Origin: Rouxiella badensis
GTDB lineage: Bacteria; Pseudomonadota; Gammaproteobacteria; Enterobacterales; Enterobacteriaceae
NCBI RefSeq assembly: GCF_002093665.1
Contig: NZ_MRWE01000041.1
Coordinates: 1 to 42,902 of the forward strand
Length of the DNA stretch: 42,902 nt
Direction of reading: 5' to 3'
Shown here: positions 2,802-42,902 of the stretch, in pieces
Layout: every line of letters starts with the position of its first letter
How positions within the stretch are numbered: the first letter of the stretch is position 1
The notes under the pieces: generated by a model
What the model saw: only the letters and a program-made list of their open reading frames with translations
What the model was told of the DNA's origin: nothing
Database searches by the model: none
Program-made: the position numbers and the translations under genes

Positions 2802-3617
2802 ATGTCCATTAAATTTAAATCTCTTGCAGTTGCGGGTGTACTTCTGGGATCGCTGGCCCTTGCAGGCTGTGGCCCGAAGAAAGAAGATCCTAATCACATC
2901 AAGGTAGGCGTTATCGTCGGTGCAGAACAGCAGGTTGCTGAAGTTGCGGCGAAAGTTGCCAAAGAGAAATACGGTCTGGACGTAGAGCTGGTGACCTTTA
3001 ACGACTACGTTCTGCCAAACGAAGCGCTGAGCAAAGGCGATATCGACGTCAACGCCTTCCAGCACAAGCCATACCTGGATCAACAAATTAAGGATCGCGG
3101 CTACAAGCTGGTTCCGGTCGGTAATACCTTCGTGTATCCGATTGCTGGCTACTCCAAGAAAATCAAATCCATTAACGATCTGAAAGACGGTGACCAAATT
3201 GCGCTGCCTAACGACCCGACTAACCTGGGCCGTTCACTGCTGCTGCTGCAGAAAGTGGGTCTGATCAAACTGAAAGACGGCGTGGGTCTGTTGCCAACCG
3301 TTCTGGACGTCACCGAGAATCCAAAAAATCTGAAACTGGTTGAACTGGAAGCGCCACAGCTGCCGCGTTCACTGGATGACAACAAAATTGCGCTGGCGGT
3401 GATCAATACCACCTATGCAAGCCAGATTGGCCTGACGCCAGAGAAAGACGGCATCTTCGTCGAAGACAAAGATTCACCTTACGTGAACCTGATTGTCGCG
3501 CGTGAAGATAATAAAGATGCTGAAAACGTGCAGAAGTTTGTTAAAGCCTACGAGTCTGACGAAGTATACCAGGCTGCTAACAAAGTCTTTAACGGCGGTG
3601 CGGTAAAAGGCTGGTAA
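2802..3617 (+). CDS. metQ: methionine-binding lipoprotein MetQ
   Basis: MetQ is the substrate-binding protein of the MetNIQ importer, capturing methionine in the periplasm while anchored by lipid. The N terminus is a lipoprotein signal with lipobox LAGC, giving Cys23 as the lipidated residue. The remainder is the NlpA/MetQ fold, including VTFNDYVLPNEAL and the motif INDLKDGDQIALPNDPTN. It has 271 residues, as in E. coli. An AGAGGATAGG ribosome site precedes the ATG. It is the last gene of the operon, and a clear terminator follows about 50 bp downstream. Confidence 0.97.
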   Translation: MSIKFKSLAVAGVLLGSLALAGCGPKKEDPNHIKVGVIVGAEQQVAEVAAKVAKEKYGLDVELVTFNDYVLPNEALSKGDIDVNAFQHKPYLDQQIKDRGYKLVPVGNTFVYPIAGYSKKIKSINDLKDGDQIALPNDPTNLGRSLLLLQKVGLIKLKDGVGLLPTVLDVTENPKNLKLVELEAPQLPRSLDDNKIALAVINTTYASQIGLTPEKDGIFVEDKDSPYVNLIVAREDNKDAENVQKFVKAYESDEVYQAANKVFNGGAVKGW

Positions 3618-33111: not shown

Positions 33112-34053
<942 letters not shown>

Positions 34054-37844: not shown

Positions 37845-37901
37845 TACAAGTAACGCTTGGCTTTTTTTCTTTCAACATCACTATCAGATAAAGAGAACAG
37901 T

Positions 37902-38723
37902 ATGGAATTACAAACCGTCATTGAGCAGGCATTCGAACGCCGTGCAGACATCACTCCGGCTAACGTTGACAGCGAAACACGCGACGCCGTTAACCAGGTT
38001 ATCAGCAAGATCGACAGCGGCGAACTGCGCGTTGCCGAGAAGATTGATGGCGAATGGGTTACGCATCAGTGGCTGAAGAAGGCGGTACTGCTCTCTTTCA
38101 GAATCAATGACAATGAAGTGATGGAAGGCGCGGAAAACCGCTTCTACGACAAAGTTCCAATGAAATTTGCCGACTACGACGAAGCGCGCTTCAAGCGTGA
38201 AGGTTTCCGCGTAGTGCCTCCTGCTGCCGTACGTAAAGGTTCTTTCATCGCTCGCAACGTGGTGCTGATGCCTTCTTACGTTAACATCGGCGCCTACGTT
38301 GATGAAGGCACCATGGTTGATACCTGGGCCACCGTGGGTTCTTGCGCGCAGATCGGTAAAAACGTTCACCTGTCCGGCGGCGTAGGCATCGGCGGCGTTC
38401 TGGAGCCACTGCAGGCTAACCCGACCATCATCGGCGACAACTGCTTCATCGGCGCACGTTCAGAAATCGTTGAAGGCGTCATCGTTGAAGACGGCTGCGT
38501 AATCTCAATGGGCGTTTACATTGGTCAGAGCACCAAGATTTATGACCGCGAAACCGGCGAAGTTCACTACGGTCGTGTGCCAGCAGGTTCGGTGGTTGTT
38601 TCCGGCAACCTGCCTTCTAAAGACGGTAAATACAGCCTGTACTGTGCTGTTATCGTGAAAAAGGTTGATGCAAAAACCTTAGGCAAAACCGGTCTTAATG
38701 AGTTATTACGTTCTATCGACTAA
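37902..38723 (+). CDS. dapD: 2,3,4,5-tetrahydropyridine-2,6-dicarboxylate N-succinyltransferase
   Basis: DapD transfers succinyl from succinyl-CoA to tetrahydrodipicolinate in the lysine and diaminopimelate pathway, which supplies peptidoglycan. The N-terminal helical domain is followed by a left-handed beta-helix of hexapeptide repeats ([40 protein letters not shown]). It has 273 residues. ATG 37902 has AGAGA upstream and [14 protein letters not shown] aligns with E. coli; an in-frame start at 37857 has no support. It lies 57 bp after glnD and before a perfect terminator. Its substrate pathway shares lysine with LdcC in this window. Confidence 0.97.
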
Positions 38724-38730
38724 ACTGAAG

Positions 38731-38758
38731 AAGCGGGTTAATTAACCCGCTTTTTTTT
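38731..38758 (+). terminator. rho-independent terminator after dapD
   Basis: AAGCGGGTTAA (38731-38741) and TTAACCCGCTT (38742-38752) form a perfect palindrome whose middle bases make the loop, followed by eight T. Confidence 0.92.
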
Positions 38759-38818
38759 AAGGTATTTTCGGCGTTTCACGTATGAGCAATAAGTTTAAAA
38801 CAAAAGGATGGTGCTGCT

Positions 38819-39208
38819 ATGTATGACAACCTGAAAGGCCTGGGGATTAACAATCCTGATGACGTCGATCGTTATAATCTGCGTCAGGAAGCAAATAACG
38901 ACATTCTGAAGATTTATTTTCGCAAAGATAAAGGCGAGTTTTTTGCCAAGAGCGTGAAGTTTAAATACCCACGCCAGCGTAAAACCATTGCCGCCGACAA
39001 CGCGGGTCAGGGTTACAAAGAGATTAACGAGATTAGCCCAAACCTGCGCTACGTTATCGATGAACTGGATCAGATCTGCCAGCGTGAGCAGATTGAAGTC
39101 GACCTCAAGCGTAAAATCCTCGACGACCTGCGCCACCTCGAGTCCGTGGTTGCCAATAAGATTACCGAGATTGAGTCCGATTTGGAAAAACTGACCAGCG
39201 GCCGCTAA
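38819..39208 (+). CDS. yaeH: DUF3461 family protein YaeH
   Basis: A 129-residue cytosolic protein of unknown function, near-identical to E. coli YaeH in [20 protein letters not shown] and [10 protein letters not shown]. The C-terminal third ([20 protein letters not shown] and onward) is a charged helix with coiled-coil character. AAAAGGATGG precedes the ATG. It follows dapD beyond a terminator, so it probably has its own promoter, not identified. In E. coli the gene after yaeH is cdaR; here it is yqcA in the opposite direction, so synteny with E. coli ends here. Confidence 0.94.
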
Positions 39209-39255
39209 TCAGTTGCATTAGAGCCTGTAATGTTCAACGTTATCGATACCCTAAA

Positions 39256-39297
39256 ATTTCGAGCTGCAGGAAAACACGTTCATCTGCAGTTCGAAAT
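39256..39297. terminator. convergent terminator between yaeH and yqcA
   Basis: ATTTCGAGCTGCAG (39256-39269) pairs with CTGCAGTTCGAAAT (39284-39297), 14 bp with one G-T pair and a 14-nt loop. On the minus strand TTTTAGGG follows; on the plus strand TATTATG. It likely ends yqcA and perhaps yaeH. Confidence 0.6.
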
Positions 39298-39312
39298 ATT
39301 ATGGGCAGCGAA

Positions 39313-39762
39313 CTAACTCAATTGAGTGGCCCACTTTTCTACCCATGGCATAGCGACAATTTCTGGCTCCGGCTGCTCAATAGCATCGATCTCCAGCATC
39401 TCACCAATACGTTTTGCACCCTGCTCCTGGAGCAAATTGTCCATCTTGTGGCCACCGCCGCAGAAGAAATCATAGCTGCTGTCACCCAGCGCAATCATGC
39501 CGTAACGCAGTTCCGGCTGGTATCCGACTTGGTCGCGGATGGCATCAAACAACGGCGCGATGCTGTCAGGTAAATCGCCCTGACCCGTAGTAGAAGTAAT
39601 CACCAGCACGAAGTGATGGCGATAATATTGCCAGGCCTCAAGGGTACCCTCTTCAAAGACCTTTACCTGATGCCCGTGTTTTTTGAGCAAGGTTTCTGCT
39701 TCTTCAGCTACCAGCAACGCGTTTCCATACACAGTGCCTACGAAAATACCAATCTCAGCCAT
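39313..39762 (-). CDS. yqcA: flavodoxin YqcA
   Basis: A short-chain flavodoxin of 149 residues that binds FMN. The phosphate-binding loop is [15 protein letters not shown] (from residue 9), and the FMN loops [11 protein letters not shown] and [14 protein letters not shown] follow. Its electron-transfer partners are not known for certain; in E. coli YqcA belongs to the MioC-like group. GGGAG precedes the ATG. It lies 32 bp after truC and is the last gene of yqcC-truC-yqcA, the same trio and order as in E. coli, where it is at a different chromosomal place. Confidence 0.95.
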
Positions 39763-40968: not shown

Positions 40969-41106
40969 GTTTCAACTCGCTGGACGAAACTCTCTCGTTG
41001 TCTCTACTAAGCATAGCCTCCATCAATCAACTATCAGTTTTTCATACTGGTACTGTGTGATTGCTACGGGCAAAATAGGCGCACTTTACATAAATTGACT
41101 TTAAAG

Positions 41107-42354
41107 ATGCCTGCAAACTCAATAATAACGCCCAAAAAACACGCCACGCCCATGAAAGCAATGATCGCTTCCGTGTCAGGCTATGCAATGGACGGCTTTG
41201 ACCTGTTGATCCTCGGATTCATGTTGCCCGCTATTTCAAGCGAGCTGGGGCTTACTGCATCACAGAGCGGTTCGCTGGTGACGTGGACGCTTATCGGCGC
41301 GGTGATTGGCGGCGTGATTTTTGGCCCGATCAGCGACCGCTTTGGACGCATACGCGTACTGACTTTCACAATTTTGATGTTCTCGTTGTTTACCGGCCTG
41401 TGCGCCGTTGCCCAGGGGTATTGGGACCTGCTGACCTATCGCACTCTGGCGGGCGTTGGGCTTGGCGGTGAATTTGGTATTGGTATGGCGCTAATCGCCG
41501 AAGCCTGGCCGATTGAGAAGCGTAATCGTGCCTCTGCTTACGTTGGCATGGGCTGGCAGCTGGGTGTGCTGATGGCCGCGATCCTGACACCGCTGCTGCT
41601 CGGTACTATTGGCTGGCGCGGCATGTTCCTGATAGGGCTTGTGCCCGCCCTCGCCTCCTTTCTTATCCGCCGTAGTATGGGCGAGCCCGAGGAATTCGTT
41701 AAGCAGTCCTCTAAGCAGCAGCAGGAGCCTTTATTGACTCGTTTAGCGCTGCTGTTCAAGGACCGTGCGACCCGTCGATGCAGTATTGGCATTCTGATCC
41801 TCTGTTCGGTGCAAAACTTCGGCTATTACGGATTAATGATTTGGATGCCAAGCTATCTGTCGAAAAACTTCGGTTTTTCGCTCACCAAATCCGGCATGTG
41901 GACCGCCGTCACCGTTATCGGCATGACCTTCGGTATCTGGTTGTTTGGCGCATTGTCAGACCGCTTTGCACGCTGGAAGATTTTCGTGATTTATCAGGTC
42001 GGTGCGGTGGTGATGGTGGTGTGTTATGCCCAACTGAAAGACCCGACGGCGATGCTGTTTGCCGGTGCCGTGATGGGGATGTTCGTGAACGGAATGATTG
42101 GTGGCTATGGGGGCCTGATTTCTGACAGCTACCCGGTCAATGCGCGCGCGACGGCACAGAACGTATTATTTAATCTTGGACGCGGCGTAGGCGGTTTTGG
42201 ACCACTGGTGATAGGTATGCTGGCGTCACAAATAGCCTTTACCGCAGCGATTACGCTGCTGGCGGCAATTTACCTGCTGGATATCTATGCGACGCTGTTC
42301 CTGCTGCCAAAAGCGCAAAGTAAGAAAGAAGACACGCTGGGTGCAATAGGCTAA
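41107..42354 (+). CDS. MFS transporter, aromatic-acid/sialate:H+ symporter-like
   Basis: A 415-residue inner-membrane protein of the major facilitator superfamily with 12 predicted helices. Helix 1 carries GYAMDGFDLLILGFMLP, an acidic DGFD motif as in the aromatic acid:H+ symporter (AAHS) and NanT-like groups. Motif A is GPISDRFGR between helices 2 and 3, repeated as GALSDRFAR in the second half. GLGGEFGIGMALIAEAWP also recalls sialate, shikimate and benzoate carriers, but the substrate cannot be named. I chose ATG 41107; TTG 41095 and ATG 41152 are alternatives, and none has a good ribosome site. It stands alone between yqcC and csrB and faces csrB tail to tail. Confidence 0.88.
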   Translation: MPANSIITPKKHATPMKAMIASVSGYAMDGFDLLILGFMLPAISSELGLTASQSGSLVTWTLIGAVIGGVIFGPISDRFGRIRVLTFTILMFSLFTGLCAVAQGYWDLLTYRTLAGVGLGGEFGIGMALIAEAWPIEKRNRASAYVGMGWQLGVLMAAILTPLLLGTIGWRGMFLIGLVPALASFLIRRSMGEPEEFVKQSSKQQQEPLLTRLALLFKDRATRRCSIGILILCSVQNFGYYGLMIWMPSYLSKNFGFSLTKSGMWTAVTVIGMTFGIWLFGALSDRFARWKIFVIYQVGAVVMVVCYAQLKDPTAMLFAGAVMGMFVNGMIGGYGGLISDSYPVNARATAQNVLFNLGRGVGGFGPLVIGMLASQIAFTAAITLLAAIYLLDIYATLFLLPKAQSKKEDTLGAIG

Positions 42355-42390
42355 TAGTGGCTTAGTGAGGGAAATTGGCAAGATAGAGAC

Positions 42391-42424
42391 AAAAAGTTGG
42401 GGGTACTGTTTTCACAGTACCCCC
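42391..42424 (-). terminator. csrB rho-independent terminator
   Basis: GGGGGTACTGT (42399-42409), loop of 4 nt and ACAGTACCCCC (42414-42424) form a perfect 11-bp stem. On the minus strand AAC and TTTTT follow. On the plus strand the tail GGTTCGTTTTAT is weaker, so it may only partly stop MFS transcripts. Confidence 0.9.
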
Positions 42425-42750
42425 GGTTCGTTTTATAGCAATCCAGCTACCTGTGTGCTCCCTGCTCGTTCCTTGAAAACTTGTCCTGCGGTCATCCTAA
42501 CCAGCCATCCGTTGCATCGTCCTACTTTCATCCTGACGTATCATCCTAGTCGTCCTGACTTTCATCCTTTAGTCTTCCTGACCCACCAAACTTCCTGTTT
42601 TGGCTCTCAATCTCCGTCCTGGAGGTGTCCCTTGTTTCGTCCTGAAACATCCTGGCATAATCCGATGCCGTCCTGACTCATCCTGAGCCTTTCCCCTACT
42701 TGATGAAACCGCCATCATCCTAATGTTCAGTTTCATGTCTTCCTTTCGAC
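42391..42750 (-). ncRNA. csrB: CsrB regulatory RNA (CsrA-sequestering)
   Basis: CsrB binds many CsrA dimers through GGA-containing hairpin loops and so relieves CsrA control of carbon storage, motility and biofilm. On the minus strand this 360-nt segment holds about 24 GGA trinucleotides, mostly as CAGGATG, CAGGACG or TAGGATG. The 5' end GTCGAAAGGAAGACA and AACATTAGGATGATG align with E. coli CsrB (GTCGACAGGGAGTCAG, AACATCAGGATGATG), and the 3' part AGCAGGGAGCA, AGCTGGATTGC and AAACGAACCGGG also match, followed by a terminator. E. coli CsrB is about 369 nt. The gene neighbourhood (yqcC) is as in E. coli apart from the interposed MFS gene. Ends are predicted. Confidence 0.93.
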
Positions 42751-42756
42751 ACAGCT

Positions 42757-42785
42757 AGAATCGTCGATTTTGCCCGCCGAGGCAA
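42757..42785 (-). promoter_or_regulatory. csrB promoter
   Basis: On the minus strand TTGCCT (42780-42785), a 17-bp spacer and GATTCT (42757-42762) place the start at the G at 42750, exactly where homology to E. coli CsrB begins. The weak -10 fits a promoter that needs an activator. Confidence 0.65.
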
Positions 42786-42805: not shown

Positions 42806-42902
42806 GCAGGGTAGGACGTATAAACAGTAGGTCTTATTGAATCAACTTAATGATTTTAATTGATTTTTATAATTACAAAGAAAATTATTAGCAGTAAATA
42901 TA

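Follow-up and report, generated by a model that had tools for sequence, protein, structure and literature searches.

The csrB locus of Rouxiella badensis

The DNA analysed here, a complete contig of Rouxiella badensis (NZ_MRWE01000041.1, 42,902 nucleotides (nt), hereafter the window), carries on the minus strand next to its upper end a gene for the regulatory RNA CsrB. The gene is convergent with a gene for a transporter of the major facilitator superfamily (MFS), after which yqcC, truC and yqcA follow in the order of E. coli. Apart from the extra MFS gene between csrB and yqcC, the arrangement is that of E. coli (syd - csrB - yqcC). When the whole window was scanned with the Rfam models, RF00018 identified the minus strand from 42750 to 42391 as csrB with a score of 242.3 bits (cut-off 71), the match extending over model positions 1-356 of 356 and thus over the full length of the model. 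In a scan of the source genome only this locus exceeded the cut-off; a second match, of 22.4 bits, corresponds to the terminator hairpin read on the opposite strand. We conclude, with a probability of about 0.97, that the locus is a csrB gene, belonging to an enterobacterium close to Rahnella and Serratia and encoding an untranslated, CsrA-sequestering RNA of about 360 nt. A first-pass annotation had already proposed a CsrB RNA here and was right about the RNA, its strand, its ends and its terminator; the Rfam search that it suggested for the minus strand gave the full-length match and not the absence of one. The positions of the features are collected in Table 1.

The 360 nt contain 24 GGA, 17 AGGA and 12 AGGAYG motifs, compared to means of 16.2, 5.2 and 0.5, respectively, in 1000 dinucleotide shuffles. 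Two of the shuffles reached 24 GGA, and none reached the observed number of AGGA or AGGAYG. The highest number of GGA in any other 360-nt stretch of the window was 14 (every 20 nt, both strands). The previously estimated two dozen GGA motifs are therefore present and enriched. Their supposed CAGGATG-like context is found in the looser form AGGAYG, while CAGGATG itself occurs only three times. In an alignment of 12 csrB copies (six from Rouxiella, three from Rahnella, one from AwEntero and both copies of the metagenome-assembled genome (MAG) L064), 19 of the 24 GGA are retained throughout. The number of GGA is 24 in all six Rouxiella genomes within the Rfam boundaries, and 24 or 25 with slightly wider ends. 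That the number of repeats sets how much CsrA can be sequestered, as had been claimed, is an overstatement, because transcription, decay and any second sponge also count and the repeat number alone is not sufficient.

The consensus structure calculated with RNAalifold from the 12 copies has 87 pairs, and 98.1% of the cells pair in it. In 33 cells both sides are changed, compared to 10.6 in shuffles and 0-8 in six versions of the structure slid along the alignment. The covariation score was matched by none of 500 shuffles. The consensus fold leaves 20 of the 24 window GGA unpaired, 13 of these in hairpin loops and 7 elsewhere. The locus thus has GGA motifs in loops and single strands, a conserved secondary structure and a rho-independent terminator, the features by which the family is recognized.

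Both ends resemble those of E. coli, as foreseen. The E. coli-like start sequence GTCGA lies at 42750, five nt ahead of the Rfam match, and the transcript would accordingly be expected to begin there. At the other end, the predicted 11-bp terminator was recovered as an 11-pair stem (helix 15), in which one pair is changed on both sides among the 12 sequences. The unpaired stretch just 5' of it is retained in the alignment, except that two rows have a gap of one base and others carry single changes. It may be the counterpart of the necessary RNase E cleavage site of E. coli (PMC5027483).

Upstream, the IHF-like site of the window has a counterpart at the same distance in csrB of E. coli K-12, which fits the consensus of integration host factor (IHF) without mismatch. 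The palindrome expected for UvrY lies outside the window, because the contig ends 152 bases above the csrB start. Contig C13 of the same genome has at its end syd, the gene that precedes csrB in E. coli. The last 19 nt of C13, read towards csrB, are exactly the first 19 nt of the window minus strand. The palindrome TGTGAGAGATCTCTCACA begins 56 nt before the C13 end, which places the box at -189 to -172 of csrB if the two contigs adjoin, as judged from the 19-nt overlap and the gene order of relatives. In E. coli the centre of the box is at -183/-182 (PMC4682653). Our survey comprised 24 of 30 csrB loci, those of the source genome and of its own family, the other six belonging to other families. 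Of the 24, 21 have a UvrY box in the 300 nt upstream; the three misses are the window, cut by the contig end, and loci L025 and L028.

The strict box pattern TGTRAGNNNNNNCTYACA occurs at two places in the genome, csrB and a second place, and a control pattern at one, so that about one chance match per genome is to be expected. The second palindrome, TGTAAGCACTTACTCACA (G000:C55:16557-16574), stands beside a gene that we take to be mnmE-like, and has the same neighbour in G004 and G005. A further Csr RNA at this place was considered and rejected: the GGA-rich stretch of the minus strand lies within an open frame of the same strand. This search for further Csr RNAs used the strict box pattern and not GGA clusters as such, and a looser box would escape it.

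Table 1. Features of the csrB locus and the csrC remnant of the source genome (window coordinates unless a contig is given)
Feature	Position	Strand	Basis or remark
csrB RNA	42391..42750 (Rfam-matched part 42389-42745)	-	RF00018 full model, GGA enrichment, alignment of 12 csrB copies
Stretch with 24 GGA motifs (presumed CsrA sites)	42442..42743	-	First G of first motif 42743, of last 42444
Intrinsic terminator, 11 pairs, 4-nt loop, then T run	42399..42424	-	Terminator stem prediction
Unpaired AAAACGAACC just 5' of terminator	42425..42434	-	Sequence; unpaired in consensus
GATTCTA, -10-like block	42756..42762	-	Pattern GAT[CT][CT]TA
IHF-like site AATCATTAAGTTG, one mismatch	42843..42855 (-105 to -93)	-	Comparison with the consensus
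Open frame antisense to csrB, 103 aa, judged non-coding	42365..42676	+	GTG start
MFS transporter gene, convergent with csrB	41095..42354	+	Pfam MFS_1 5.8e-59
csrC remnant, source genome	G000:C53:13771-14013	-	23.9 bits (RF00084 cut-off 61); 8 GGA

Evaluation of the csrB assignment

Several points weigh against the assignment of a working csrB. The sigma-70 scan found no site reaching its threshold at csrB; of the promoter that had been placed at the exact start, what stands is the -10-like GATTCTA, whose loose pattern occurs close to the start at 16 of the 24 surveyed loci, the window included. The consensus structure was tested on the very alignment from which it had been calculated, which favours the structure. 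Of the five covariation measures, that for further pair types does not rise above the shuffles, 258 of 500 of which reach its value. Finally, when the window sequence is folded singly the picture is weaker: the loop count suggested beforehand gives 8 of 24 GGA in hairpin loops, compared to 13 by the consensus fold, and 5 more unpaired, 13 in total. Among 200 folded shuffles the mean was 1.9 GGA in hairpin loops and the maximum 7.

A csrB that has decayed and no longer works is thinkable, as its sister csrC appears decayed in this genome (see below). We nevertheless regard this as very improbable. The gene is 90.7-93.5% identical to csrB of five other Rouxiella genomes, whereas the surrounding 20 kb reach 83.5-86.2%. 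Furthermore, GGA motifs and pairs are retained, and the upstream box and the partner genes are present.

Still less credit can be given to the idea that the plus-strand frame is a real protein gene and that the GGA repeats are nothing but the reverse of its codons. Such a frame does exist, as the first-pass annotation had pointed out together with the risk of misannotation: it runs over 103 codons from a GTG, and an antisense frame of 85-98 aa is open in all four other Rouxiella tested. However, it matches no Pfam or NCBIfam family, its start varies among the Rouxiella members, and the longest antisense frame outside the genus is 76, 35, 35, 39 and 39 aa in five copies and 45 aa in E. coli. 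The RNA family model on the minus strand, the terminator and the upstream box already account for the stretch. With no family and a frame that is lost outside Rouxiella, the protein interpretation was rejected.

That the locus encodes an RNA of the CsrC type can practically be dismissed: CsrB and CsrC do belong to one Rfam clan and the CsrC model weakly matches the csrB loci of three Rouxiella members (25.6, 21.5 and 21.3 bits), but the CsrB model reaches 242 bits over its full length, no CsrC score exceeds the CsrB score at the locus, the synteny is that of csrB (syd to yqcC, not yihA to yihI), and a separate csrC remnant sits at the csrC place.

The csrB gene described here is thus an ordinary, well supported representative of a known RNA family. 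No literature on csrB or CsrA in Rouxiella was found among open-licence papers. Its identification adds one more csrB for annotation, where protein-based gene calling easily overlooks such genes. This invisibility had been predicted. Of 5375 matching E. coli records, the 8 that were listed have no feature under the match, while K-12 does list csrB.

The csrC place in Rouxiella

In Rouxiella as in E. coli K-12, the csrC place is between yihA and yihI. The highest numbers of GGA per 250 nt at this place in six Rouxiella genomes (L155-L160) are 8, 5, 0, 0, 0 and 0, while the number in csrB is steady across the genus. The four genomes without GGA share the same aligned deletion edges, retain the terminator and have scraps of the promoter side left. 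Among the neighbours the corresponding values are 11-13 in Rahnella, 11 in AwEntero, 13 in MAG L064, 15-17 in Chimaeribacter, 16 in Serratia oryzae, 17 in Serratia inhibens and 18 in Yersinia. In Brenneria (n=1) and Pectobacterium (n=2) the place is a gap of 197-237 nt containing 2-3 GGA. Among the 25 of 30 loci compared, four other genera (G009, G019, G027, G031) show one of 190-247 nt with 1-4 GGA. Absence of csrC from the yihA-yihI place is therefore recurrent in the order.

A low Rfam score was considered as proof of csrC decay and discarded. Rahnella, AwEntero and Chimaeribacter likewise score only 33.7-49.4 bits with RF00084 (cut-off 61), and with RF02767 (cut-off 279) Serratia and Yersinia reach 54.3-267 bits, again below the threshold. 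Because the scores of the neighbours are below the cut-off as well, the score says little about decay. In Rouxiella L158, L160 and L202 no CsrC match was obtained at E 0.1. The case for csrC decay rests on the loss of GGA and on the deletion.

Identity in ungapped columns between the two remnant-bearing genomes is 78.7% for the csrC body, compared to 92.7% for csrB and 81.6% for engB. The csrC identity minus the csrB identity is -20.9 for the pair G000-G001 and -33.7 and -26.7 for G000 and G001, respectively, with G029 (csrC ends of G001 and G029 set at a fixed 230 nt). In controls that include none of the three, among 30 of the 78 pairs, the difference lies between +6.3 and -17.1. These values are suggestive of relaxed constraint on csrC but do not prove it. 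A single deletion common to G002-G005 alone does not fit the tree, in which 18,497 ungapped columns group the source genome with G004/G005 (FastTree 0.998, UFBoot 82).

With two worn remnants and four deletions, the Rouxiella csrC loci look like intermediate stages of loss. We lean, with some reservation, towards the view that Rouxiella is losing CsrC and that CsrB by itself titrates an almost unchanged CsrA, without the compensation that two sponges would provide. The principal CsrA sponge remaining to the genus is probably CsrB, while an unrelated second sponge may exist elsewhere in the genome. The csrC erosion is the part of this work with some novelty, csrB itself being known. A search of open-licence papers found none on csrC loss alongside csrB in Enterobacterales. 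If CsrC is really failing, a comparison of close relatives with one and two sponges would offer a natural experiment on the reasons for which several Csr RNAs are maintained in many gammaproteobacteria.

Partner genes and proposed mechanism

The genes csrA, barA, uvrY and csrD are all present in the source genome. CsrA and its E. coli counterpart differ at a single residue out of 61, and UvrY, BarA and CsrD are 86%, 65% and 51% identical, respectively. The RNA family, its conserved structure, the placing of the GGA motifs, the regulatory sites and the partner genes come directly from our computations, while we infer transcription, activation, CsrA binding and decay of the Rouxiella CsrB by analogy with E. 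coli and Rahnella.

In the E. coli model, BarA-UvrY activates csrB and the GGA sites of the RNA sequester CsrA; CsrD and RNase E bring about cleavage just before the terminator, and CsrA bound to the last two preceding sites guards against it (PMC7652899, PMC5027483). By analogy, phosphorylated UvrY would bind the palindrome about 180 bp upstream and switch on csrB, probably assisted by IHF bending. The roughly two dozen GGA, mostly in hairpin loops or single-stranded, would then bind CsrA dimers and keep CsrA off mRNAs. CsrD and RNase E would be expected to remove CsrB via the single-stranded segment immediately preceding the terminator. The counterparts of the two guarding sites, GGA at 42461 and 42444, are retained in all 12 copies.

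Genomic neighbourhood

An MFS gene beside csrB was also found in Serratia sp. M24T3, all three Rahnella, Serratia inhibens, AwEntero, MAG L064, G021 and G030. Among the truC matches listed for the window gene, that of Serratia sp. M24T3 is the nearest (87%). The yjhB gene beside csrB of Rahnella aquatilis HX2 is presumably an MFS gene. No MFS gene was seen beside csrB in the three Chimaeribacter and eight Yersinia loci, nor in E. coli K-12. A DNA similarity comparison of the flank examined did not reveal csrB in three Serratia, most Xenorhabdus and the Providencia loci. Farther from csrB (37899-39762), the genes after yqcA are yaeH (DUF3461) and dapD, whereas E. coli has gudP there. A t44 RNA, which we take to lie before rpsB in E. 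coli, was found at 33866-33980 on the minus strand (74 bits, cut-off 44).

MAG L064, an Enterobacterales genome, carries tandem csrB copies (2108-2466 and 2806-3164), 99.57% identical over 465 bp and each with a UvrY box; this may be a recent duplication or an assembly artefact. In another genome of the order, five CsrB matches above the cut-off stand in a row, about 700 nt apart (G044:C1:4533806-4536939). A collapsed tandem csrB at the end of our contig is unlikely, with csrB continuous into the MFS gene and C13 overlapping by 19 nt.

Comparison with known CsrB systems

The Serratia strain that provides one point of comparison we take to be ATCC 39006. Its RsmB belongs to another lineage and was compared by description: it is reported as a CsrB homologue under a BarA/UvrY-type pair and apparently as the single antagonistic RNA (PMC8450108). 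The csrB gene of E. coli K-12 (NC_000913, b4408) shares with that of Rouxiella the position between syd and yqcC, the GTCGA start, the terminator and similar distances of the UvrY and IHF sites. It differs in its length of 369 nt, its 22 GGA, the lack of an intervening MFS gene and the accompanying csrC with 14 GGA. With a query of 523 nt, other E. coli strains show about 68% DNA identity across 74% of its length.

Closer relatives are found in Rahnella, where csrB of three species other than strain HX2 is 84-86% identical to the window csrB. The element is already known from the work on CsrB of Rahnella aquatilis HX2, which is described as an RNA of 366 nt with 23 GGA and a terminator, dependent on BarA for its expression and adjoining yjhB (PMC5665550); the RNA of Rouxiella has 24 GGA.
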